A DNA stretch of 30,006 nt. Origin: Flavobacteriaceae bacterium. GTDB lineage: Bacteria > Bacteroidota > Bacteroidia > Flavobacteriales > Flavobacteriaceae. The stretch covers positions 1 through 30,006 of the forward strand of contig NZQO01000157.1 of NCBI GenBank assembly GCA_002693605.1, written 5' to 3'. Below are positions 5,671 to 28,490 of the stretch, piece by piece. How positions within the stretch are numbered: position 1 is the first letter of the stretch; the number at the start of each line of letters is the position of its first letter. Both the position numbers and the translations under genes were made by a program. The notes beneath the pieces were generated by a model. It was given only the letters and a program-made list of their open reading frames with translations, had not been told where the DNA came from and made no database searches.

Positions 5671-6450
5671 TCAATCCCCCTGTAGTTCTGCTGCGATTAA
5701 AGTTGAAAGCTTCTCGATTTCCTCGTCCAAGTTCGCTCGTAAATTCAGCACATCTTGTGTAAAGGCGAGCTTCATGCCCAATAGGTTTCGTATGCGCGTA
5801 TTTTCTACCAATAGGCGATAATTGTTTGAAGGTTCGTTGGAAAGGTCTATCTCCCGAATATTCGCCTTAACCAGCGGAATGAAGTTGATATCGTTTTCCA
5901 AAATATCGTCAATTCGAATTTGGTGTACGCTCAATCTGTCTTCCAGGATATCGTTTAGCTTATTTTGGTGAAATTCCAAATCGGTGAAACGCTCGTTCAG
6001 TTGCTTGTTCTTGATAAGGCTTAGCTTGTTGGTGTTTTTTAAATTGGCGTAGGCGTTGAACGTTGGTTGATCGCTTTGCAGGTCCCAAACCGCGCTTTTG
6101 AATATGGAATCGGGAATTGGTGGAATAGGCGAATGGGAACTTTTAGCGTCGATACCCAGAATACGTATCAGCCTACTCTTTAACGTGTCTTCCTCGGCAA
6201 TAAAACGCTCTGACTGTCTTTTGGCGACGCTTAGGTTTTCTGCCAAGCTTTGCAGGATGGTTCGCTCCTCAATGCGGTTCTTGCGGTTTTCGTTCCAGGT
6301 ATTTATTTGCAGCGCGATTAAGATACCAATTACAACTAGTACTATTTCCCCTAGGGCATAGAGCAGATACTTTGCCACGGGCGACCCGGGGGCATTCCAT
6401 AGGTTTTTGGTGAGAAGCCTCTTTCTAATCTTTCCGAAGAAACGCAGCAC
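5671..6450 (-). CDS. DUF6090 family membrane-anchored protein (divergent copy)
   Basis: A 259-residue DUF6090 protein. The basic N-terminus (RFFGKIRKRLL), the single transmembrane segment in the KYLLYALGEIVLVVIGILIA stretch and the following QINTWNE are family hallmarks. The positive-inside rule puts the N-terminus in the cytoplasm and the remaining helical domain outside the inner membrane. This copy has an unusual insertion before the anchor (WNAPGSPVA in place of RFS). The second motif of the family appears as LKNTNKLSLI, with Asn replacing Gly. The start is GTG, fixed by the conserved RFF a codon later and by lack of a better ATG. It stands apart from the 9-13 kb operon and has its own promoter-like box. 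Function unknown. Confidence 0.88.
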   Translation of the reverse strand: MLRFFGKIRKRLLTKNLWNAPGSPVAKYLLYALGEIVLVVIGILIALQINTWNENRKNRIEERTILQSLAENLSVAKRQSERFIAEEDTLKSRLIRILGIDAKSSHSPIPPIPDSIFKSAVWDLQSDQPTFNAYANLKNTNKLSLIKNKQLNERFTDLEFHQNKLNDILEDRLSVHQIRIDDILENDINFIPLVKANIREIDLSNEPSNNYRLLVENTRIRNLLGMKLAFTQDVLNLRANLDEEIEKLSTLIAAELQGD

Positions 6451-7913: not shown

Positions 7914-9053
7914 CTATTCGAAAGGAGTTTTCTCGATGGCGCTCCTAACAATGCTATCTGTTACTGAAATCAATTCACGCTCAAAGAAATCGTCCCTATT
8001 TGCGAATAAGACTATAGTAAGCGGTCGGTCTAGATAGCGGCGCACATGCGTATTTACCCCAAACCAGCCACCTCCATGCTCGGCCATACTGTCGTTTACC
8101 ACCCAGCCCATAGCATACTGTTGTTCCTTGCCGTTTGTAGTTTCGATCGAAGTTGGCTTGAATATAAGCCGATGCATTTCTTTCGATAGCAAGCTGCTGT
8201 CCCTCAAGGCTTGGTCGTACTGGAAATAATCGCTTAGGCTAGTATAAATGCCCCCGGCGCCAAACAGACCGGTAAGTGGGTGTCCATCCATCTTGTTCCA
8301 TACCCCCGAACTATCCTGGTGATAATAATGGGCCCGTTCCCGTATGCTAACCGGATGGTTGAGGTCGAATGCTACCGAATGTTCCATTCCGGCCTTTTCA
8401 AATATGTGTTTTTGTAAAAATTTATCATAACGTTCACCACTTACCTTTTCGACCACCAAAGGGATGAGTTCGTAGGTCCCGTTATTGTACCTAAAATTCT
8501 GGTGGGCAGTTTTAACCGATTTGTTCTTTTCAACATACCACTCCAAGACATCGTTATTGTTGGCAATTTTGGAAGCATCCCAATGGGTATAGAAATATTC
8601 CTCGGCGTCGTCCAGACCGGAGGTATGGTTCAGTAATTGTTGAATCGTGACATTGCGGAAGGTATCGTAGGGCAGAATATTGAAAAGGGTGTCCGATAGC
8701 GAAAGCTTTCCCTGTTCCACCAAACTTAAGATAGCAAGGGCGGTAAATTGCTTGCTTACTGAGGCCAATTCCATATTTGAAGTGGGGGTGAGGGGCTGCT
8801 TCGTTTCCAAATCTCTCAGTCCGTAGCCCTTTGAAAATAGGGTTTTCCCATTGTAGGCGACCATTACTGCGACCCCAGGCTCGTTGGAGCCCACATAGGC
8901 CGTGAATACCGAATCTAATTTTAGTTCCAGATGTTCCCACCCGGCTGTCACCGTGCCCGTGACTACGGGCTTATTCTGTTTACAGGACAACAACAGGGTA
9001 GTACTGCCTATGAGAAGTATTCTTATAATCCTATACAAATGTGATACGCGCAT
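7914..9053 (-). CDS. Serine hydrolase, class C beta-lactamase fold, lipoprotein
   Basis: A 379-residue penicillin-binding-protein-like serine hydrolase. An N-terminal hydrophobic segment ends in LLLSC (Cys 24), a lipobox, so it is probably a periplasm- or surface-facing lipoprotein. The catalytic S-x-x-K is SVSK (Ser 98, Lys 101), the Y-x-N element is YNN (Tyr 189) and the third motif is HGG (about 326-328) in place of KTG. LLNHTSGL is the usual family block between them. Members include esterases, D-amino-acid peptidases and carboxypeptidases; the substrate cannot be set. It lies 68 bp downstream of the DUF6090 operon; a TACCTTAG box in that gap (9079-9086) may give it its own promoter. Confidence 0.92.
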   Translation of the reverse strand: MRVSHLYRIIRILLIGSTTLLLSCKQNKPVVTGTVTAGWEHLELKLDSVFTAYVGSNEPGVAVMVAYNGKTLFSKGYGLRDLETKQPLTPTSNMELASVSKQFTALAILSLVEQGKLSLSDTLFNILPYDTFRNVTIQQLLNHTSGLDDAEEYFYTHWDASKIANNNDVLEWYVEKNKSVKTAHQNFRYNNGTYELIPLVVEKVSGERYDKFLQKHIFEKAGMEHSVAFDLNHPVSIRERAHYYHQDSSGVWNKMDGHPLTGLFGAGGIYTSLSDYFQYDQALRDSSLLSKEMHRLIFKPTSIETTNGKEQQYAMGWVVNDSMAEHGGGWFGVNTHVRRYLDRPLTIVLFANRDDFFERELISVTDSIVRSAIEKTPFE

Positions 9054-9731: not shown

Positions 9732-10472
9732 CTAGGCTTCCAGTTCGGCGGTTATCAGTTCGATAAGTTCGGTCGCGTCTTGTTGCAATTCCTGAAATGA
9801 CTCGATAATTACATTTTCGCCAATTTGTTTCCAGAGCATGTAGGCTTCCAGTTCTAGAATGAGTTGGGGGAAGTTGCTCTGAATGTTCAGGTAGCTTTGT
9901 AGCTTTGGCTGATTTCTCAACCTCCCGAACATATCTGGGTTTGCGATGCTCGAGGCCTTTTGCAAGATGTTATTGGCCCCTTCGTTATTGTTGCTCGATA
10001 CGGCCTTTATGTGTGTCTGCTTGCCAAAATAGGAGGTAAGCTCGGTTCGCAAGTGCTCGGGCAATATCTTAATATCACCGGTGCTTACGAGGGTTTGGAA
10101 GGTATTGGTGCTAAATTCGACCTCAACAGAGCCATAATCTATTTGCTGAAGTGCCGAAAGGACAGTGGTTGGCTCCAGATTGGGCTTTTCGAAAAGGGTC
10201 TTATAATTTTCGTAGCCTTGCGCCACCTGTTGCAATTGGGCGATGGTAGCGGCGTAATAGGCTCTGTCGCTCTTAATGTCCAACAGCAATTGTTCTAAAT
10301 AAGTTTCTTGAACTGCCTCGATCTTTTGGCGCTCGTTCCAATTGTTTATCTGAAGCGCGATCAATATCCCGATCACCACGAGCACTATCTCGCCAATGGC
10401 GTAGAGCAGGTATTTGCTGAAGCGGTTTTCAGAAATCGTCTGTTTGCGAATATTTCGGAAGAATTTTATCAT
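9732..10472 (-). CDS. DUF6090 family membrane-anchored protein (operon copy 4)
   Basis: A 246-residue protein starting MIKFFRNIRKQ, with the conserved YLLYAIGEIVLVVIGILIAL anchor at about 21-40 and QINNWNE at 41-47. The rest is a predicted helical extracytoplasmic domain with the second motif LVSTGDIKILPEHLRTEL at about 128-145, and ends in a short amphipathic helix. It begins 29 bp after the preceding DUF6090 stop. The first 45 codons are close at DNA level to the other operon copies, whereas the C-terminal three quarters are not recognisably alike except for the second motif. Its variable domain most resembles that of the 27747-28490 copy (shared spacing and an N-Q-P-L/K block). Function unknown. 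Confidence 0.9.
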   Translation of the reverse strand: MIKFFRNIRKQTISENRFSKYLLYAIGEIVLVVIGILIALQINNWNERQKIEAVQETYLEQLLLDIKSDRAYYAATIAQLQQVAQGYENYKTLFEKPNLEPTTVLSALQQIDYGSVEVEFSTNTFQTLVSTGDIKILPEHLRTELTSYFGKQTHIKAVSSNNNEGANNILQKASSIANPDMFGRLRNQPKLQSYLNIQSNFPQLILELEAYMLWKQIGENVIIESFQELQQDATELIELITAELEA

Positions 10473-10501
10473 CTATTATTATTTGCGGTATACGCTAGTT
10501 G

Positions 10502-11272
10502 CTACGTCTTACTTTTGCGATTTAACTTTTCTTCAATCAAACTTACTAAAACCGTCGTTTCCTTTTTTATATTTTTCAGGTATGCGATACAGTCTTTATT
10601 AATCCAATAATGAAGTGCGGCATTTCGCAAGAATATAGCTTCGTTGGTTCGTAGCTCCCTCGCCAATTGCTCATTGCTTTCTTCACGGAAAAGGGACTTT
10701 GTGAACTTCTCGTCAAATTGTAAGGCATTTGTATTGATAAACAGTGGAGAATCAATGGGTATGGCCCAATCTATATTTATCTTGAAATTTGATTCAACGA
10801 ATTCGTAAGCTTCGTAATGCTTTACAATTAGATCCCGCAATTCGGTATCTTCAATTAAGCTTAGATTTCCTGTGCTGGATAAATCTTCATAGGTAGAGGT
10901 TGAGGGGTTAAAAATAGGGTAGAGGGAGCCGAAGACCATATAATTTCCGGCACTGCGAATAAGAAGGGTATCGGCACTGGTTCTATCCTTAAAGGCATTG
11001 CTCAATTCTTGGATGGTGGTATTGTTGTTCTCTAGGCGCTCGATTTCCTCGGTAAAGCTCTCAACATCTTTTTTGTTTTCCTTGAGTAACCGATTAAGGT
11101 ACAGCGTTTCATGTTTCCTCATTTTTTCATATTCATTCCACGTATTAATCTGCAGCGCAATCAATATCCCGATTACCACGAGCACAATTTCGCCAATGGC
11201 GTAGAGCAGGTATTTACTGAAACGATTTTCGGAAATTAGACGCTGACGAATATTTCGAAAAAACTTGATCAT
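10502..11272 (-). CDS. DUF6090 family membrane-anchored protein (operon copy 3)
   Basis: A 256-residue protein beginning MIKFFRNIRQRLISENRFSK, followed by the conserved membrane anchor and QINTWNE. The extracytoplasmic part starts with a heptad-like, Glu-rich stretch (about 50-80) that may form a coiled coil. It carries the second motif as LSSTGNLSLIEDTELRDLI. Its ATG overlaps the stop of the upstream copy in an ATGA (11269-11272), so translation is probably coupled. The N-terminal 20 residues are identical to those of copy 1, though the ectodomains differ. Function unknown. Confidence 0.9.
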   Translation of the reverse strand: MIKFFRNIRQRLISENRFSKYLLYAIGEIVLVVIGILIALQINTWNEYEKMRKHETLYLNRLLKENKKDVESFTEEIERLENNNTTIQELSNAFKDRTSADTLLIRSAGNYMVFGSLYPIFNPSTSTYEDLSSTGNLSLIEDTELRDLIVKHYEAYEFVESNFKINIDWAIPIDSPLFINTNALQFDEKFTKSLFREESNEQLARELRTNEAIFLRNAALHYWINKDCIAYLKNIKKETTVLVSLIEEKLNRKSKT

Positions 11273-11991
11273 TCAGTTGTATTTAAATCGGTGGGCATAA
11301 GGGAAAGCGTACGATCAATTGAATGAATCGTCTCCTCTAAATTTGCTATAGAAGCACCAATATTGTCACGGTTTAGCATTACTATTCTCCAGGTATCGGT
11401 CTCGGCAAAGAATCGTGGTATATCGGCTACCTCAAGAATATTCCTGAATTCAAAATTGGTGGCGTGCGCCTCCATTAAGGGCAGCCACTGCTTGTTGAAG
11501 GCGTATTCAATATCGCCCAACGCCTTGTTCACGTGTGGTACCTTGTCATCGTAATATACTCCTAAGCTTTTTCTCAACTCTTTATCCCTCACATTTTGAA
11601 GTCCGGCAGACTTTAGTGCTTCGTATGAATTGGTAAGGGACTGGAATCGACTGAAATGTACAACTTCCCCCAGCCAGGTAGGAACGCTATCTAAATTATT
11701 GTTCCTGTGGGTATCATCTACCAGTTTCTCCGATGCGATATACGCCCTTTGGTGCCAGTTTTTTATTTCTATAAGATTTGTGCGATCCTGCTTCAGGTTT
11801 TCATTTATCTGCGAAAGTATCTCCCGCTCATAAGTATTGTTTTTTCGTGCCTCATTCCAGGTGTTAATTTGCAGCGCAATCAAGATGCCGATTACCACGA
11901 GCACAATCTCGCCAATAGCATATAATAGGTATTTGCTGAATCGGTTTTCAACCAACAGTCGCCGACGTATATTTCGGAAGAATTTTATCAT
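11269..11991 (-). CDS. DUF6090 family membrane-anchored protein (operon copy 2)
   Basis: A 240-residue copy starting MIKFFRNIRRRLLVENRFSK with the standard anchor and QINTWNE. The second motif reads LKSAGLQNVRDKELRKSL, a weaker form with Ala-Gly for Thr-Gly. The C-terminal region contains a FRNILEVADIPRFF stretch with no parallel in the other copies. Both ends are ATGA overlaps, with the copy above (11988-11991) and the copy below (11269-11272), the tightest packing in the operon. Function unknown. Confidence 0.9.
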   Translation of the reverse strand: MIKFFRNIRRRLLVENRFSKYLLYAIGEIVLVVIGILIALQINTWNEARKNNTYEREILSQINENLKQDRTNLIEIKNWHQRAYIASEKLVDDTHRNNNLDSVPTWLGEVVHFSRFQSLTNSYEALKSAGLQNVRDKELRKSLGVYYDDKVPHVNKALGDIEYAFNKQWLPLMEAHATNFEFRNILEVADIPRFFAETDTWRIVMLNRDNIGASIANLEETIHSIDRTLSLMPTDLNTTE

Positions 11992-12722
11992 TCTCTAGTG
12001 ACTTCGGTTAAAATATTTATAATTATGACATTGGCTTCTTGAAAATAGTTCTTCATGAACTGGGCGTACAGGACTTTCTCGTCTATTTGGTTTTCAAATT
12101 TCGCATCCTTGAGCAATGGAAAATTACTTACTTGTAACAAAGAGGAATCTGTTGCAATGCGTTTGTGGTTAATATTGCGAATAGATCCATTTGCCTTAAT
12201 GTAATCTATGATATCCTGGGAACTTTTTTCTACCCTGCGGTTCCATTCTTCAATAATCTCAATTTGTTTTTCCCACTTAAAAAGCAGTTTTTTAAGTGTG
12301 TCATTTTTAATTAGCGCTAATTTGCCCGTGTTCTTAAGTTCGTCAAGGGTAAAATTACTGGGTTTCCAAGTGGGGAAGAAAAGTGTTTTTTCGATGGTCT
12401 TATTTAGTTGTACTTCTGAAATTTCCTTATTCGGCTTACCAACTATTGATAGAATATCCATACCACCGGTTTTCGTGTAATCAATTAAGGCCAACACGTT
12501 TTCTAGTTCACTTTGGTTGGCTTTAAATTCTTGATCGAGATTTTGGATAATAAGCTGCAGCTCGTTGTGTGATTTCCGTGCCTCGTTCCAATTATTAATT
12601 TGCAAGGCAATCAATATCCCGAATACCACGAGCACTATTTCGCCAATGGCATAGAGCAGGTATTTGCTAAAGCGGTTTTCAGAAATTAGCCGCTGACGAA
12701 TATTTCGGAAGAATTTGATCAT
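11988..12722 (-). CDS. DUF6090 family membrane-anchored protein (operon copy 1)
   Basis: A 244-residue protein and the first gene of the operon. The N-terminus MIKFFRNIRQRLISENRFSK matches copy 3 exactly, and the anchor has Phe for Ile (VVFGILIAL). The ectodomain holds the second motif as LKNTGKLALIKNDTLKKLL, then Lys/Glu-rich helices. The ATG is preceded by a leader of about 140 bp with a TATCTTTA box at its far end. Its stop overlaps the next ATG. Function unknown. Confidence 0.9.
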   Translation of the reverse strand: MIKFFRNIRQRLISENRFSKYLLYAIGEIVLVVFGILIALQINNWNEARKSHNELQLIIQNLDQEFKANQSELENVLALIDYTKTGGMDILSIVGKPNKEISEVQLNKTIEKTLFFPTWKPSNFTLDELKNTGKLALIKNDTLKKLLFKWEKQIEIIEEWNRRVEKSSQDIIDYIKANGSIRNINHKRIATDSSLLQVSNFPLLKDAKFENQIDEKVLYAQFMKNYFQEANVIIINILTEVTRE

Positions 12723-13838: not shown

Positions 13839-13991
13839 TTAGTGCATTAAATGTGATAGCATCCATAGAAAACTTCCCAATCCTAGAATTCCGTGGAGAT
13901 ATACTGTGTATTTGTTAACTCCTCTCTTTCTCATATCTCTTTCCAACACATATAGGCCTAGTAATGCTAACAATGCGAAAGCAATTAGATT
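13839..13991 (-). pseudogene. 3' fragment of a lost small membrane-protein gene
   Basis: Read on the minus strand, this stretch is an open frame of 50 codons ending in TAA (13839-13841). It encodes a convincing membrane-protein end: a hydrophobic helix (LIAFALLALLGLYVL), a charged loop (ERDMRKRGVNKY) and a second helix ending LGSFLWMLSHLMH. There is no start codon. The frame differs from that of the truncated esterase, whose stop overlaps its first codons. I read it as the surviving 3' end of a gene joined to the esterase by a deletion. The family is not recognised. Confidence 0.6.
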
Positions 13992-14614
13992 GGGGGAATT
14001 TGAGTATTGAGATTTTCGGCAGGTGAATAATCCACCGCCATTTTATCGGCTGGTAACAATTGGGAAAACCACTTGTCATTTAACACTGATAATGCTGGGG
14101 AAGATAATATTAGGGCATTGGGCATACTAGAGACACCGGTTTTTGTATCAGTTATCGGAAATATTGCCGTACTCGCAGCTAAGTGACTCCCAGCAGACCA
14201 TCCATACACCACTATTTTATTAGGATTTACGCGCAATTCGGCGGCATTATTTTTTAGCCAAATAATCGATTCTCTTGCATCTGCCATTGCGTCAATCGGA
14301 CTTAGGTCGTCTTGGTTTGAAAGTCTGTATTCCACCGCCATAGTGATGAAGCCTTTAGCGGCAAATCGCTTCGCTAGGCCAAACGCCCAAGAGGCGCTGC
14401 CTCCTGACCACCCTCCGCCGTGGAAAATAACCGTAGCCGGTTTGATTCCGTTACTGGTTTGGCTGGATGAGTTAAACACATGAATTTTTAGAGTGTCGCT
14501 TTGTTTAATGGCGTAGGTATAGGTGGTTTCTGAAATGCCAGCATCACTTTGGGCAATTCCATTAAAATGTACAATTGTTACTAGAATAATTGCAAGTAAA
14601 AAATGTTTCGTCAA
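13985..14614 (-). pseudogene. Alpha/beta hydrolase (esterase), C-terminally truncated
   Basis: The first 209 residues of a secreted carboxylesterase-like alpha/beta hydrolase. A signal peptide ends near GIAQ (20-22), the oxyanion motif is HGGGW (about 65-69), and the nucleophile elbow is GWSAG with Ser 140. The frame stops after QIPPI, exactly where family members continue into the P-P-x-L-x-x-H-G strand that precedes the catalytic Asp, so both Asp and His are missing. Downstream DNA encodes an unrelated membrane-protein end in another frame. The start is TTG, with an in-frame TAA directly upstream. It follows the serine hydrolase gene by 20 bp and was probably co-transcribed with it. Almost certainly inactive. 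Confidence 0.8.
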
Positions 14615-14634: not shown

Positions 14635-15714
14635 CTATTTAATTTCGGCATCCCAAACAAGCGAAATCATCTTATAAAAATCGCCTTGGCTGAAGTTGTA
14701 ATCCTCTTCGGTATCTACCCGATGCACTAATACCACATTGGAAGCGGGATATATACCGAGCATATGGATTCCTACTCCGGTATGGAAAAAGGACTTCGAT
14801 TTTCTCGTTTCGGTTTCCATAAGAACGTTCCAGAGCATCCCGTACGCTATGCCGTAGTTTTCATTGTACACAGAGTGTGCTTTTGTAGAACGTTTGATCC
14901 ATTCCTTCGGTATAATTTGCTTGCCGTCCCACGTTCCGTTATTGAGGTAGAGCTGCCCGTACAGTGCCAAGTCTCTTGCCGAAAGCCGAAAGTGATAGGC
15001 CGGATAGTGAGATTTTGTTCGGTCGTACTGATAGAAGCCATCCGTTTGCGGGACGCCGTTAGTTTCCGTTTCGGCATAGATCGAAACATAGTCATTGGCG
15101 TACTGCATGCCAAGAGGTTTGGCAATATCCTCATAGAACAGGTCGTAGATACTCTTGCCCGTAATACTTTCCAAAATAAATCCGAGCACGTTAAAATCCC
15201 AATTGTTGTAAAAATAGGCCTGATTTGGCTTATGCGTGCCCCGAGGGGGCAATTGTTCCAGCATTGCCTGATTGGTGGCGGCTGAGGGGTGATAAATGCC
15301 CGATCGCGACCGCAACAGGTCGGCAACGGTAGCCAATCGCTCACTTTCAGACAAAGGGGGCGCAATATCATCTATGCCTAGCTGCCCAATGGTGGCCGTG
15401 GTATCGATGGCCCCGTTGGAAACATAAATCCCGTATAACGAGTTGATAAGTGCCTTGCGGATGGAATGGACGGTGTGCTTCCTTTTGGTAGCTCCCCATT
15501 CGTACACCACTTGACCGTTCTTTAAGATTAGCAAGGAAGAAGATCCTGCCTGGGTTAAAAACGAGCCGAGCGATTCCAGTTTTTCAGCAGAGAAGTCTTG
15601 TGACTCAGGCGGAACAGGGTCAAAGTCGAAGGTGCCTTGCGCCGTAGCGCTGTTGAAGGTGAGTAAAATTGTAAAAATGGTAATCTGTAAGGATAAAGCG
15701 AAGAAGGTGTTCAA
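14635..15714 (-). CDS. Secreted serine hydrolase, class C beta-lactamase fold
   Basis: A 359-residue exported hydrolase. The signal peptide ends at about residue 26 (SATAQ). The S-x-x-K motif is SIRK (Ser 84, Lys 87), Y-x-N is YNN (Tyr 169), and the third motif is HTG (about 311-313). LLRSRSGIYHP is the usual block before the tyrosine motif. The length fits the esterase/6-aminohexanoate-dimer-hydrolase-like branch; the physiological substrate cannot be named. The only suitable start is TTG at 15714. It lies 20 bp upstream of the truncated esterase in the same direction. Confidence 0.9.
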   Translation of the reverse strand: MNTFFALSLQITIFTILLTFNSATAQGTFDFDPVPPESQDFSAEKLESLGSFLTQAGSSSLLILKNGQVVYEWGATKRKHTVHSIRKALINSLYGIYVSNGAIDTTATIGQLGIDDIAPPLSESERLATVADLLRSRSGIYHPSAATNQAMLEQLPPRGTHKPNQAYFYNNWDFNVLGFILESITGKSIYDLFYEDIAKPLGMQYANDYVSIYAETETNGVPQTDGFYQYDRTKSHYPAYHFRLSARDLALYGQLYLNNGTWDGKQIIPKEWIKRSTKAHSVYNENYGIAYGMLWNVLMETETRKSKSFFHTGVGIHMLGIYPASNVVLVHRVDTEEDYNFSQGDFYKMISLVWDAEIK

Positions 15715-16042: not shown

Positions 16043-16825
16043 TTACTTTGTTTCACATTTTTTTTCTAATTGTAGTTTCAAGTCATCGATTTCTTGCAAT
16101 AACATGTCATAGAGTTCAACTTGCCTTGAGTTTACTCCCGCGAATTCAACCGATTCGTGCAGTAGTCTTTTTCTCATTTGGGAAGAGAGAATGCCATCGT
16201 CAAAAGAAGAAATAGCCTCCTTCAGGTTTTCATCTAATCCATTTTGTAATCTGCCTTCCACCATAGCGGCTCGGTGCGAACCATTCGCAAAATTGTCATC
16301 GTGCGCAAAAGCAAGATCCACGGCGTATTTTCCATTAATCATGATGATGCTCTTTAGTTCATCAACTCTATTAAAATAGTGGTTTAGTGTTTTTATCACA
16401 GACTTATCGGTGATTATATTAAGATTGGCGCCCGATTTTAGGTCTTGATATGCTGAATTATTGGGCTCAAAATCAGAATAAATAGCTTTTGTTGCGAGTT
16501 TAATTTGAGTGGCAATCGCAATTTTCTCTGATTTTTCATCAATAAGTAACCGTATGGATTGATTCGAAGCCACGAGACGGTCTTCTGCCAGCTGGATTAG
16601 ATTTTCCATCTGCTCTTTATCCAGTTGGACATCTTCGAGTAATCGACAATAGTATTCGTTTTCTAATGCTATTTCTTTCCGATGGTCATTCCATTCATTT
16701 ATCTGCAACGCAATCAAAATACCAATAACCACAAGAACAATTTCCCCAATTGCGTAAATTAGATATTTACTGAACTTATTTTCAGCTACCATTTTTTGTC
16801 TAATTTTACTGAAGAATTTTATCAT
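16043..16825 (-). CDS. DUF6090 family membrane-anchored protein
   Basis: A 260-residue protein starting MIKFFSKIRQKMVAENKFSK, with the standard anchor (YLIYAIGEIVLVVIGILIAL) and QINEWND. The ectodomain begins with acidic helices and carries a weak second motif, LKSGANLNIITDKSV. It ends in a lysine- and cysteine-containing tail (KKCETK) rather than the usual short helix. The stop is followed without a gap by the in-frame AraC remnant, so this gene seems to have replaced the first part of that regulator. I see no promoter-like box in the 138 bp upstream. Function unknown. Confidence 0.88.
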   Translation of the reverse strand: MIKFFSKIRQKMVAENKFSKYLIYAIGEIVLVVIGILIALQINEWNDHRKEIALENEYYCRLLEDVQLDKEQMENLIQLAEDRLVASNQSIRLLIDEKSEKIAIATQIKLATKAIYSDFEPNNSAYQDLKSGANLNIITDKSVIKTLNHYFNRVDELKSIIMINGKYAVDLAFAHDDNFANGSHRAAMVEGRLQNGLDENLKEAISSFDDGILSSQMRKRLLHESVEFAGVNSRQVELYDMLLQEIDDLKLQLEKKCETK

Positions 16826-17846: not shown

Positions 17847-19313
17847 TTATTTTTCTCCGCTGTGTTTTTTATAGAATTTCCATACCTCGTTAGCCACGTC
17901 TCGTCCCAATTCCAGCCCGGCCACGTTATCTGCTTGAATATGGTAACCGCCCAAGACTCTTGAAATACCTGCCATTTCTGCCGTCTCTGTAAAAGTTGGA
18001 AATTCTAAGGTTACGGTTTCTCCCAAGTTACCTGGGTCGGTCATAGCACCGGCGATTAGTTCTGCACTAGAGCCAAATTCATCACTACCGGTCCAAATTT
18101 TCAGGGCTTCTCCACATCCTCCACTAATGGTACTATGTCCGGAAACATAACTTGGAAACGGGGGGCATAAAAATGTTTCGGGTGAGTAAGGTCTCCATTG
18201 TGTTCCGTCCATTTCAATCATCCCTTTTCCTTCTCCGCCCCACGCTTTTATTTTTTGGTTCTCATAATACTTATGAACCAATGCATACGGTCTGGCATAA
18301 TCGTAGAACATTTTGGAATCCCACGAAGCTATAAAAGCATCCATGGCTACTACTTGATTATAGAAGTACATTTTTACATCCTGGTCTAACGTATGTTTGT
18401 CTCTTCTCGAAACGTCTTGGGCAAATTTCAACCAATGTCCGGCTTGCTGCACAGATTGCGGGCCGTCGCGCATAAATTCAACCAATGCTTTTTGATAATC
18501 GGTTAAATTGGCCTGCATTTCGATTACTTCTTGCACTTCCCTTTCCAATTGTTGAGACCCTATCATGGGTGGTGGACCTGGTCTAAACTGGTCTCCCGAT
18601 TGTAAGGCAATTGGCTTTACTTTGTCCCAAAAAGGTGTCAAACAGGCTGGGGCAAACTTTCCTCCTTTGCCGTCAGAAAAATATTTTGGTTGCCACCGGT
18701 TAGCGTCGACATTCGCATCTGCTGAATTAAATGGTTGATAACCTACATAATTGAAATAAGGCTTTCCATTTGATCCTTCTTCCTCTCCATATTGATTTGC
18801 GCCATCTCCTTTTCTAGCTTCAATTACCGATCTTGCCGCTAAATTTCCAATTCCCTCTGGCGTGTTTGGGTCTAAACTTTCATTGGTAGGGTCTAAACCC
18901 AATTCTCTCATATACGCTTCAAATAGGTGTTTATCGGAATAGTAATATTCGTTCATTGCGCGAAGCGCGGCATAGCTTATGGCTATTTCCTTATTTTTCA
19001 GGCTTTGTTCATTCGCTGGTCTCCTTTCCACCCCTTGAAGATACACGGGGATAGCTTTTTCATCATATCTCGACCAAGCGTCGAAAACTGCTACAAAAAT
19101 GAGCCCTAGGTATCGGGATGTAATGGTGGGCCTTGGTCGAAAACGTTCCGTGTCATTCGCTGTCGCAATTAAAGCCATTTCTCCCCACTTATAGGCAACG
19201 TTCTCTGTTCCTTGGGGCTCGATTATCTCAACTGAATTTTCTTGTATATATTGGGAATTCTTGCATCCATAGAAAATTAAGACGACGATTGATAACAGTA
19301 TAATTTTTTTCAT
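17847..19313 (-). CDS. Vanadium-dependent haloperoxidase-type lipoprotein
   Basis: A 488-residue PAP2/vanadium-haloperoxidase superfamily protein. The signal peptide ends in a lipobox, FYGC (Cys 16). The vanadate-binding residues are all present with the spacing of fungal vanadium chloroperoxidase: Lys 334 and Arg 341 (seven apart, KMFYDYARP), Ser-Gly-His at 391-393 (YVSGHS), then Arg 452 and His 458 (six apart, SRVLGGYH). The region between K/R and SGH includes the usual FLCPPFPSY turn. Such enzymes oxidise halides with peroxide; some relatives are phosphatases. A TAACTTTC box (19336-19343) may be the -7 element. The gene is intact. Confidence 0.9.
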   Translation of the reverse strand: MKKIILLSIVVLIFYGCKNSQYIQENSVEIIEPQGTENVAYKWGEMALIATANDTERFRPRPTITSRYLGLIFVAVFDAWSRYDEKAIPVYLQGVERRPANEQSLKNKEIAISYAALRAMNEYYYSDKHLFEAYMRELGLDPTNESLDPNTPEGIGNLAARSVIEARKGDGANQYGEEEGSNGKPYFNYVGYQPFNSADANVDANRWQPKYFSDGKGGKFAPACLTPFWDKVKPIALQSGDQFRPGPPPMIGSQQLEREVQEVIEMQANLTDYQKALVEFMRDGPQSVQQAGHWLKFAQDVSRRDKHTLDQDVKMYFYNQVVAMDAFIASWDSKMFYDYARPYALVHKYYENQKIKAWGGEGKGMIEMDGTQWRPYSPETFLCPPFPSYVSGHSTISGGCGEALKIWTGSDEFGSSAELIAGAMTDPGNLGETVTLEFPTFTETAEMAGISRVLGGYHIQADNVAGLELGRDVANEVWKFYKKHSGEK

Positions 19314-20469: not shown

Positions 20470-21567
20470 CTACTTGTACTTTACAAGTTTAACGATCTGC
20501 CCCTCAAGGTGCACATAATACACGCTAGCGGGATATGGCGATAGGTCAATCTCGTTATTGCCCACGGTAAGGGTGCCCTCTGCCAGGCGCTGCCCTAGGG
20601 GAGAATATATCTGATAGTCAGTAGCTTCCGTAAGGTTAAAATAAACGGTGCCCTTAGTGGGGTTTGGATAATAACCTATGGTCTGGGCTGGCGAATTTAC
20701 CCCCAATACCTCACATTCGAAGTCTTGCAACACCTTCGAGGCGGCCGGTGGGCTCACCAAGAGCGCGTCGGTTAATAGCGGACAGTAACAATCGTTTCCC
20801 TCTACGTACAGTTTTAACCATGACAGGGCTAATTGGCCCATAGCACCGTCCCCTCCAGTAGGGGTGTTGGCAACGGAGTGGTTCCCGTTGGCTACCTCGA
20901 ACAGCAGCTTATCGGTTGCATTTGGCGTGGCATTATAATGGAGGTCTGCGTGCTGCCCGGGAGGTGCCACCGTATCGTCTTCCCCACTTAAAATAAGCAC
21001 GGGAGTTTCATGATCTAACTGTGGGTCGGGCAGCCAAGGGCATAGGGCTACGACCCCTTTTATGGTATTGTCGAGAACGGCGGCCCGTTGGGCACCACCC
21101 CCTCCCATGGACCAGCCACTAACGGCCAATTGGTCGAGGTTAAGGGCACCCTCCAGTGGGGAGGTCGCGCGTGTTTGTTCCTGTTTAATGGTTTCCAGGG
21201 CATCTAACAGTGCGGTGGCCCGCGCCTCTGGAAAATCAAAAATGGAGTTGGTGCCTATAATTATGGTAACTATGCCGTGCGAGGCATAGAAGGGACCCCA
21301 TTCTTCCACACTGGAGGGCTGCGCCGTGAAGCCAGGCACTATGGCAATGCTTGCATAGGGAGGGGTAGCATTGGTGGGGTAGTAAATAGTTGCCCCTGCA
21401 TAGCCAGGGCCATTGCGTATGCCATCGGCCTCGCTAAGCGTCGCTACGGTATAAGGCCCGGGATTGGTAAGACTTTCAAGCGTAATGTCCTCGCATTGGG
21501 CCAGGATCCCCTGGGTCGCGAATGCCGGCACTAACAGTAGCAATAAGATGAGATAGCTTTTTTTCAT
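20470..21567 (-). CDS. PETase/cutinase-like polyester hydrolase with T9SS sorting domain
   Basis: A 365-residue exported alpha/beta hydrolase from the ATG at 21567 (an upstream in-frame extension would disrupt the signal peptide, 1-24). The catalytic domain (about 25-285) follows PETase/cutinase order: GPYTVAT, ATIYYPT, the IVPGFTAQPSS oxyanion/aromatic loop (Phe 80 where IsPETase has Tyr), WGPFYASHG, GTNS, nucleophile elbow GWSMGGGG (Ser 153), CPW (Trp 178), acid GEDDTVAP (Asp 198) and base GNHSVAN (His 230). The Cys pair that brackets the active site in IsPETase is absent (Gly and Val instead); cysteines near 280 and 300 may form the C-terminal disulfide. The last 75 residues are a type A T9SS domain (YYPNPTKG). 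Natural role probably cutin-like ester hydrolysis; PET activity untested. Confidence 0.92.
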   Translation of the reverse strand: MKKSYLILLLLLVPAFATQGILAQCEDITLESLTNPGPYTVATLSEADGIRNGPGYAGATIYYPTNATPPYASIAIVPGFTAQPSSVEEWGPFYASHGIVTIIIGTNSIFDFPEARATALLDALETIKQEQTRATSPLEGALNLDQLAVSGWSMGGGGAQRAAVLDNTIKGVVALCPWLPDPQLDHETPVLILSGEDDTVAPPGQHADLHYNATPNATDKLLFEVANGNHSVANTPTGGDGAMGQLALSWLKLYVEGNDCYCPLLTDALLVSPPAASKVLQDFECEVLGVNSPAQTIGYYPNPTKGTVYFNLTEATDYQIYSPLGQRLAEGTLTVGNNEIDLSPYPASVYYVHLEGQIVKLVKYK

Positions 21568-26771: not shown

Positions 26772-27533
26772 TTAGTTATTATTTTTCAAATAGGTGGTAA
26801 TTGATTCAATTAGCTCTTCTGCTTTTAGGATTGCATCTCTTGACAAATTAATTTCACCGTTTGCCCGAAATTTTCTTCCAATTAATGCATTTTCGAATGC
26901 TGGTTTTCCTCGTAAAATATCAGTGTTATCCAATGCTAAGCTCCGCTCGTTGGAATATGCGTTCGACGAGGGGAAAAAAGTTCCAAATTCCATTTCAGTG
27001 TATATGAAACTTTCGATGTGTTTTTTAACGAATTGATTGTTTTCATTTGTAATATTTGAAAATCTATCGAGAACTGCGTAATATTTGAAAATAGATTCTG
27101 CCAGTTCTTGATTGTTAATCCATTGAAAGTGCGAACTAGACTCCATAGATTTATAGGCAGTTTTACTGGGTAGAAACGTTTTTTCGGAAGCGATATCCTT
27201 AATCTCATTGGCAAAATTAGATAATGCTACGTTCTCATAGTCGGGTAATGAGATGATTCGAAAACTAAATTCTATTGCCTCCTGCACATCCCTATTGTAT
27301 TCAATCTGTTTGTTCAGGTTTTCTATATCTTCGTTCAGGTTTAAAATCAACGAGTTTAGGGAGGCAGTAAGCAGGGCCTGCTCCTTGTTAAATTCGTTCC
27401 AATTATTAATTTGCAGGGCAATCAAGATTCCAATAACTACCAGGAAAATCTCTCCAAGTGCATACTTTACGTACTTTCCGGTTTTATTTACACCCATAAG
27501 GCTAAACCGTATCTTCCGAAAGAATTTTATCAT
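26772..27533 (-). CDS. DUF6090 family membrane-anchored protein
   Basis: A 253-residue protein from the ATG at 27533, fixed by the conserved MIKFFRKIR; an in-frame ATG ten codons upstream at 27563 is unlikely. It has the anchor YVKYALGEIFLVVIGILIAL and QINNWNE. The second motif is MESSSHFQWINNQELAESI, the weakest of the set. The ectodomain ends in EELIESITTYLKNNN. More AT-rich than the operon copies. Together with the next copy and a GIY-YIG gene it forms a row of same-strand genes separated by spacers of about 200 bp. Function unknown. Confidence 0.88.
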   Translation of the reverse strand: MIKFFRKIRFSLMGVNKTGKYVKYALGEIFLVVIGILIALQINNWNEFNKEQALLTASLNSLILNLNEDIENLNKQIEYNRDVQEAIEFSFRIISLPDYENVALSNFANEIKDIASEKTFLPSKTAYKSMESSSHFQWINNQELAESIFKYYAVLDRFSNITNENNQFVKKHIESFIYTEMEFGTFFPSSNAYSNERSLALDNTDILRGKPAFENALIGRKFRANGEINLSRDAILKAEELIESITTYLKNNN

Positions 27534-27746
27534 TGGGTAACGTTCCGTTATAACGAGGCACAATGTGTTTGTGTATCACTGCGTTGCGTTGTTCAAGTAA
27601 CTAATTTAGCAAATACAAACCAAACCGACCTTCCGTCAGGCACGTAAAAAATCCGCGCCGCACGACCACGCCTTGCGACCCGGTGCTCGCATTACTTGGA
27701 AGTAGGCGAGAACAAGCAATTACTTATTGTAATTATTTTGCATTCG
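27534..27746. other. Cassette-like spacer between two DUF6090 genes
   Basis: A gene-free stretch much more GC-rich in its centre than the neighbouring genes. AATTAC / GTAATT and CAAGTAAT / GTTACTTG are short inverted matches. The order and length resemble the 28587-28713 spacer, but the two are not clearly homologous. I see no promoter-like octamer in it. Confidence 0.4.
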
Positions 27747-28490
27747 TTATTTGTTGAGTTCGTGGTTTATTGATTCAGCAATTTCGGTTATATCAGCTTG
27801 TAGGTTCCTCAAACTGGCAGAGACGTTTTCCTCATTCATTTTTTTGTAGAACATAGCTATCTCAATTGACCATATTACCATATCCAAATTTTCCTGAATC
27901 CCCAATTCGTCACGCAGTAATGGTTGATTTTTGATTCTGTTCTGAAAATGGGGTTGAGATCCATAGATTCCTGCATTTTCAATTCTATCAAAATAGTGGG
28001 TGTTCCATTGGTTATTAGATTCCACGAGATAGTCTTGATTCCGTTTCAGTTCGGTTAGTTTTTTCCGTAATTCGGAAGGAATTAGTTTGATATCGCCGGT
28101 GTTTTCCAACGATGTAATGGTACTGTTTTCGAACCGGATGGTAGTGGTTATAAAATCCAGTTTATTTTGATTATCCAAAACATCATTCATGGTAAGGTTT
28201 GGTGTTTTATAAGTAGTTATATAATCGTCGTAAAGGGATATACCGTAATTTAATTCTTCCAGTTTCTGGTGAATGTGAATCGAATCTGTTTTTAAATCCT
28301 GGAGTAGGTTTAAATAGTTGGTTCTTTTAATAGCTTCAACTTTTCTGTTTTCATTCCAGTTGTTAATTTGCAGAGCGATTAAAATACCAATAACAACCAG
28401 TACGATTTCTCCAATTGCATAGAGCAGATATTTGCTGAACTTGTTCTCGGTCAGCATTCTTTGTCTAATTTTTCTGAAGAATTTTATCAT
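27747..28490 (-). CDS. DUF6090 family membrane-anchored protein
   Basis: A 247-residue copy starting MIKFFRKIRQRMLTENKFSK, with the standard anchor and QINNWNE. The second motif is a strong match, LENTGDIKLIPSELRKKL. The ectodomain has the closest layout to the 9732-10472 copy, including LQDLKTDSIH, a YDDYITTYKTPNL region where the other has YENYKTLFEKPNL, and QNRIKNQPLL where the other has FGRLRNQPKL. The two are thus sister copies despite being 18 kb apart. A TATCTTTA box lies 16 bp upstream. Function unknown. Confidence 0.9.
   Translation of the reverse strand: MIKFFRKIRQRMLTENKFSKYLLYAIGEIVLVVIGILIALQINNWNENRKVEAIKRTNYLNLLQDLKTDSIHIHQKLEELNYGISLYDDYITTYKTPNLTMNDVLDNQNKLDFITTTIRFENSTITSLENTGDIKLIPSELRKKLTELKRNQDYLVESNNQWNTHYFDRIENAGIYGSQPHFQNRIKNQPLLRDELGIQENLDMVIWSIEIAMFYKKMNEENVSASLRNLQADITEIAESINHELNK

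Follow-up and report, generated by a model that had tools for sequence, protein, structure and literature searches.

The 30,006 nucleotides of flavobacterial DNA analysed here (the window) encode a PETase-like hydrolase with a secretion tail, which raises the question of which esters such an enzyme would cleave, and whether its likeness to PETases means that it degrades PET. The reading that we favour, at a probability of about 0.85, is that the protein would belong to the PET27/PET30 group of Bacteroidetes as a secreted serine esterase, exported via the type IX secretion system (T9SS) and acting on aliphatic polyesters and lipid-like esters. The gene and its features are as follows.

20470..21567, minus strand: whole gene, T9SS-tailed PETase-family serine hydrolase of 365 aa (open reading frame and profile matches)
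21499..21567, minus strand: predicted signal peptide, aa 1-23, hydrophobic N-terminus (from PET27-PET30 alignment)
20773..21471, minus strand: catalytic alpha/beta-hydrolase domain PF12740, aa 33-265 (profile match; also whole-genome family search)
21328..21330, minus strand: Phe80, first aromatic-clamp residue, IsPETase Tyr87 (alignment)
21103..21117, minus strand: GWSMG, aa 151-155, with Trp152, nucleophile Ser153, and Met154 (alignment)
21028..21042, minus strand: CPWLP, aa 176-180, with Trp178 as second clamp residue (IsPETase Trp185) and Pro180 as its partner in evolution
20974..20976, minus strand: catalytic Asp198, IsPETase Asp206 (alignment)
20878..20880, minus strand: catalytic His230, IsPETase His237 (alignment)
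20782..20784, minus strand: Cys262, predicted disulfide partner of Cys285 (homology to C262-C285 as reported for the PET30 crystal)
20713..20715, minus strand: Cys285, predicted disulfide partner of Cys262 (same homology)
20497..20670, minus strand: T9SS type A C-terminal sorting domain, aa 300-357 (profile matches)

The preliminary description had named no strand; the open reading frame lies on the minus strand, with its ATG start at 21567 and its stop at 20470-20472, and an alternative GTG start farther upstream would lengthen it to 21615. All of the motifs that had been picked out earlier (IVPGFTAQPSS, GWSMGGGG, CPW, GEDDTVAP, and GNHSVAN) are present in the translation. PF12740 is matched over aa 33-265 with 189.3 bits against a cut-off of 28 (E 1.1e-55), a family score far above chance. 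The claimed type A T9SS sorting domain passes more narrowly, with TIGR04183 at 30.5 bits against 23 and PF18962 at 27.3 against a cut-off of 27, and is borne out by both profiles. Membership in the dienelactone hydrolase (DLH) or BD-FAE group would be the reading closest to the names of several homologues, whose sources include dienelactone hydrolase; a few of the best 60 of 180 solved relatives are likewise called DLH domain-containing protein, and four homologues (P0146, P0151, P0154, and P0155) carry a precomputed PF01738 match beside PF12740. The window protein itself matches neither PF01738 (dienelactone hydrolase) nor PF20434 (BD-FAE) at E <= 1e-3, and the best 60 of the 180 solved relatives (distinct PDB sequences at E <= 1e-3) include PETases and cutinases, led by PET30. 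We regard DLH or BD-FAE membership as extremely improbable, and the earlier placement in the PETase group stands, with the T9SS-tailed PET27-PET30 as best relatives.

The best PDB match is 7PZJ (residues 1-363, E 2.3e-156; runner-up E 5.7e-51), described as PET30 of Kaistella jeonii (PMC8767016). Over aligned positions, the window protein is 68.7% identical to PET27, 63.7% to PET28, 70.3% to PET29, 64.7% to PET30, 74.5% to a homologue from Ulvibacter antarcticus, and 33.1% to IsPETase; its catalytic domain is 79.8% identical to that of PET27, and PET27 and PET29 are 89.0% identical to each other. Among the matches listed, the closest protein is P0003 (79-80% identical). Relatives at 60-75% identity over the best segment are encoded at 22 loci of the scanned genome contigs, among them loci of the source organisms of PET27 (L008), PET28 (L016), and PET29 (L006); the genera in the record titles of these loci presumably all belong to the Flavobacteriales. 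The view that the window protein is one more member of the already described secreted PET27/PET30 group is supported.

Within this group, one close parallel is PET27 (Aequorivita sp. CIP111184, WP_111881932), which shares the T9SS tail, Phe80-Met154-Trp178, Pro180, and Cys262/Cys285, but differs after the catalytic Asp (Thr199-Val200 in the window protein, Pro-Thr in PET27), in its separate tree branch, and in its gene neighbourhood. PET28 and PET29 (Aequorivita viscosa and A. vladivostokensis) share the Phe-Met-Trp motif and the T9SS tail. PET30 (7PZJ), as described, shares the fold family, triad, T9SS tail, and lack of an active-site disulfide, but has Tyr178-Thr180 in place of Trp178-Pro180. 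PET93 and PET94 (Maribacter and Arenibacter) are also secreted flavobacterial hydrolases, reported as PET-active; unlike the window protein, they are placed outside the PET27/PET30 cluster and described as having no C-terminal Por signal (PMC13188925).

In the alignment to IsPETase (Ideonella sakaiensis, 6EQE), Ser153, Asp198, and His230 correspond to residues 160, 206, and 237, forming a Ser-His-Asp triad with G-x-S-M-G, and Trp152 and Ser231 correspond to Trp159 and Ser238. The two active-site traits that the preliminary description had singled out, Phe at the aromatic-clamp position and no active-site disulfide, are both seen: Phe80 aligns to Tyr87, and Gly195 and Val232 stand at Cys203 and Cys239. 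The window protein further differs from IsPETase in His206 and His210 at the positions of Ser214 and Ile218, a pair common to PET27-30, and in its sorting tail, which IsPETase does not have. The Phe-Met-(Trp/Tyr) binding motif is present as F80, M154, and W178. By homology, the Ser153-His230-Asp198 triad would cleave ester bonds in insoluble or medium-chain substrates, with the substrate probably held between Phe80 and Trp178.

The stretch that links the catalytic His to the last helix (HS..W-K) is 23 residues long in both the window protein and IsPETase, and 20 in LCC. As type II PETases are defined by an extended loop and a second active-site disulfide in PMC13396203 and PMC8767016, the window protein combines the long type II loop with the absence of the type II second disulfide. 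The DxDxR(Y)xxFxC signature is absent after the final helix, where the aligned window protein reads EGNDCYCPLLTD. Neither Cys262 nor Cys285, the predicted pair, varies among 43 aligned rows selected from the matches. In the same 43 family members, five cysteines in all (aa 25, 176, 260, 262, and 285) are invariant, and a second bond such as C25-C260 besides C262-C285 is conceivable.

Cleavage between A23 and Q24 is predicted from the alignment to PET27-PET30, whose site is given as 23-24 (PMC8767016). The signal peptide would export the protein, and its C-terminal tail would then direct it through the outer membrane by way of the type IX system, with the cell surface or the medium as its probable destination. 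This export route is available to the host, because its genome (2.19 Mb in 161 contigs, 68.4% complete) contains a translocon gene of the SprA family (2401.5 bits over positions 2-1903 of a profile of 2319, the match extending to base 4 of its contig) together with Por-tail proteins (30 matches, 29 of them over the cut-off and two in the window).

The substrates are best approached through the assayed relatives. PET27, PET28, PET29, and PET30 are each reported to have hydrolysed pNP esters, tributyrin, PCL, BHET, and Impranil (PMC8767016). Judged by what these four cleave (PCL, BHET, and Impranil), the window protein would most likely act on aliphatic polyesters and lipid-like esters, and, by analogy, we expect with considerable confidence that it is active on PCL and BHET. 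On the same analogy, a lipase or esterase confined to small or lipid esters, lacking any meaningful action on polyesters and resembling PETases in fold and family only, is unlikely. His206/His210 at the S214/I218 positions, as in PET27-30, the absent M5 signature, and the reported inactivity of PET28 and PET29 on PET despite the same motif would all suit such an enzyme, but the T9SS-tailed PET27-30 all reportedly hydrolysed polymeric PCL and the polyester-polyurethane Impranil.

Action on PET itself is a separate matter. In PMC8767016, terephthalate release from PET is reported for PET27 and PET30 only, and PET28 and PET29, which have the same Phe-Met-Trp motif as PET27, are given as inactive. 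Relative to IsPETase, the activity listed there is 4.7-fold lower for PET27 and ~253-fold lower for PET30; the turnover of PET by both is described as low, and PET was judged by the authors not to be the preferred substrate. More distant T9SS-tailed PET38, as well as PET53 (Aequorivita), expressed poorly and are recorded as inactive where tested, and a table of the same paper has PET57-59 as positive on PCL and not on pNP esters (PMC8767016). A second rule ties PET activity solely to sequences with the M5 motif, according to PMC12224614; the DxDxR(Y)xxFxC part of M5 is missing from PET27 and PET30 as well, though both are reported as PET-active. A residue rule drawn from PET27 and PET29 was considered and set aside: none of their nine catalytic-domain differences is diagnostic, and the window protein agrees with PET29 at six, with PET27 at one, and with neither at two. 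Neither the Phe-Met-Trp nor the M5 rule decides the PET activity of the window protein, which is not inferable because relatives with the same motif are reported on both sides (PET27 active, PET28 and PET29 inactive). By analogy, we would put even odds on a detectable but slow hydrolysis of PET, and any such action is likely to be weak.

A host that lives on PET by means of a true PET-degrading enzyme is very improbable. PET27, which is 68.7% identical and has the same Phe-Met-Trp, does reportedly free terephthalate from PET foil, but the low turnover by PET27 and PET30 noted above tells against this reading, as does the gene content. Pfam scans of the window gave no adjoining catabolic gene, none of its window neighbours is kept near the relatives, two common kinds (Hsp20-like and beta-lactamase family) apart, and the genome elsewhere has a single Ring_hydroxyl_A gene, predicted to be of ring-hydroxylating dioxygenase type. 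A search for a tannase-type MHETase gave no match in the genome, and the same search matched no control genome either, so that the empty result does not bear on terephthalate use by the host. Identities of ~60-75% among the T9SS-tailed relatives suggest that they are far older than plastics. Given its wide divergence, the family is probably old, and the natural substrate of the favoured polyester and lipid-like esterase is more likely a biological polyester or surface lipid than a plastic.

The second clamp residue varies within the family in step with residue 180. This was followed in 208 sequences, comprising the window protein, the 22 loci, and 185 of 196 further proteins (nine that were identical or contained X, and two window copies, were left out); the rows derive from the best 120 each of 1169, 1004, and 678 matches, and close relatives are over-represented. 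Pro180 is present in 91 of the 108 rows with Trp178 and in 4 of the 100 with Tyr or Phe there, and an earlier 135-row set gave the same pattern. Among 117 variable columns, column 180 ranks first against residue 178, with 7.0 supported pairs in agreement and 0.0 opposed (runner-up, net 1.7 pairs). Residue 178 changes between Trp and Tyr/Phe 23 times by parsimony on the first of four trees, and 22-26 times on the other three.

Mere shared descent as the source of this coupling has been partly tested. In sign tests on well-supported branches, the median p was 0.016 on the first tree (9 pairs), 0.0625 without the Phe rows (7 pairs), 0.0625 under a mixture model (7 pairs), and 0.5 on a catalytic-domain tree (3 pairs); the median number of opposing pairs was 0 in each of the four. 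When every branch of the first tree is counted, 17 of the 22 pairs are concordant, 5 show no difference, and none is opposed (p 1.5e-5), and a two-trait model with dependence is better than an independent one (LR 94), figures that are optimistic because many branches of the 208-homologue trees are weak. Short-tract gene conversion may also have contributed to the coupling, but column 180 alone stood out among the 117. Residues 178-180 read Trp-Asp-Ser in IsPETase and Trp-His-Thr in LCC, with no Pro coupling, and the association is at most a feature of the flavobacterial PET27/PET30 family.

For PET30, the substitution Y178W is reported to have led to a loss of activity (data on request), as is F80Y (PMC8767016). 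The first loss fits a Trp without its Pro partner; the idea of a missing Pro180 does not explain the second. We tentatively propose, at somewhat less than even odds, that residue 178 is a recurrent Trp/Tyr (rarely Phe) clamp switch in which Trp is mostly held by Pro180, that Y178W in PET30 failed without this partner, that the paired change would keep or raise activity, and that the flips reflect changes of natural substrate. The window protein is in the paired Trp-Pro state. No title among the matches listed in the literature has the 178/180 coupling as its topic. Table 2 of PMC13188925 gives the PET30 binding site as Phe Met Trp; it is Phe-Met-Tyr in PMC8767016, as presented there, and in the PET30 sequence aligned here.

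The preliminary description had also suggested a member from a possibly different lineage, and the phylogeny agrees. In a tree of 26 rows (the window protein, the 22 loci, PET30, P0003, and P0179), rooted at the midpoint with no outgroup and with several weak deep forks, the window protein pairs with P0003 (support 100/99), and this pair joins Psychroflexus gondwanensis, Ulvibacter antarcticus, and two uncultured rows at 87/83. PET27-29 fall in a separate neighbouring branch with seven of the rows that carry the polA-side label described below (99/96), and PET30 groups with Frigoriflavimonas, away from both. Among the matches listed in the open literature, a weak negative, there is no assayed enzyme from the branch of the window protein. 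In the main texts of two large screens, Psychroflexus is absent from PMC12455559 and PMC9772341 and Ulvibacter from PMC9772341; Aequorivita and Kaistella appear in PMC9772341 as reference-list mentions only, and not in PMC12455559.

With regard to distribution, the genome has one PF12740 match (at 68.4% completeness). The full-length protein as a query gave no other orthologue in 60 genomes (its own and 59 relatives) at E <= 1e-3; the other matches lie over the sorting tail, bar two weak ones in G005 and G046 that fall on the catalytic part. The catalytic domain as query, at E <= 1e-20, matched 14 of 397 sampled genomes of the family: the one it comes from, ten with 75-84% identity, and three with 47-55%; the gene is therefore patchy in the family. 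One of the last three genomes has two adjacent PETase-domain copies (G161:C35:27893-29920), 53 and 55% identical to the window protein.

Gene neighbourhoods were compared between the open reading frames of the window and those within up to 8 kb of flank at each of the 22 related loci. An operon or catabolic cluster was rejected as a candidate, as only Hsp20-like (L003) and beta-lactamase-family (L002, L003) frames recur. At six loci (L013, L014, L015, L017, L018, and L019) a polA-like gene precedes the PETase-like gene, which follows downstream within ~250 bases, and at L010 and L021 the polA-like gene is 2.9 and 4.8 kb upstream; we take this neighbour, named from its sequence in all eight loci, to be DNA polymerase I-like. 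Four Aequorivita loci (L006-L009) have another neighbour set in common. The polA-side label, scored as one for all eight, requires 2 changes on the 26-row tree versus 6.9 in shuffles, as would be expected if some lineages had inherited the gene at a fixed site. The copy in the window lies outside this site.

Base composition also sets the window copy apart. Its G+C is 0.535 versus 0.419 for the window, and at third positions 0.568 versus a mean of 0.457 for the 21 other window frames (range 0.297-0.587). In 21 of the 22 relatives (L022, with no clean frame, was left out), the gene exceeds its flanking frames by 0.003-0.064 in G+C and differs from them by -0.095 to 0.048 at third positions. The third-position excess of the window gene, 0.11, is above that of any of these 21 against their flanks. 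Because the window copy stands out more in G+C than its relatives do, the comparison leans towards a recent horizontal gain; the excess could instead reflect uneven composition of the window, with its AT-rich DUF6090 genes. Between 20000 and 22400 there are 3 sigma-70-like sites (4.1 expected) and 0 terminator-like sites (3.0 expected). The consensus TTTG-N18-21-TANNTTTG has 0 sites in the window against 0.80 expected.

Several other genes of the window may be recorded. Eight DUF6090 (PF19578) frames lie on the minus strand within 5671-6450, 9732-12722, 16043-16825, and 26772-28490, and the four at 9732-12722 follow one another directly, their ends overlapping or almost touching. All but one of the eight begin MIKFF, with a similar N-terminal part and a diverged remainder, and the eight represent a local expansion. 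Adjoining the PETase-like gene, 17847-19313 (minus strand) encodes a vanadium haloperoxidase-like protein of 488 aa with DUF6851 and a VCPO second helical-bundle domain, for which the compared flanks of the 22 related loci contain no homologue. A BD-FAE/Abhydrolase_3-type protein and a PF00144 (beta-lactamase-family) neighbour are encoded on the same strand at 13985-14614 and 14635-15714 (minus), and a further PF00144 protein at 7914-9053.

For the family, the window protein adds a branch without known assays to the small set of T9SS-exported, cold-active polyesterases. It illustrates how poorly motif rules such as Phe-Met-Trp and M5 predict PET activity in Bacteroidetes, and, as PET27 reportedly acts on PET and the 89.0%-identical PET29 reportedly does not, it offers a comparison point for the cause of that difference. 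The Trp178-Pro180 coupling frames a two-residue question for PET30, PET27, and the window protein, and, if the proposed switch is true, the flavobacterial PETase family would be a natural series of clamp variants.
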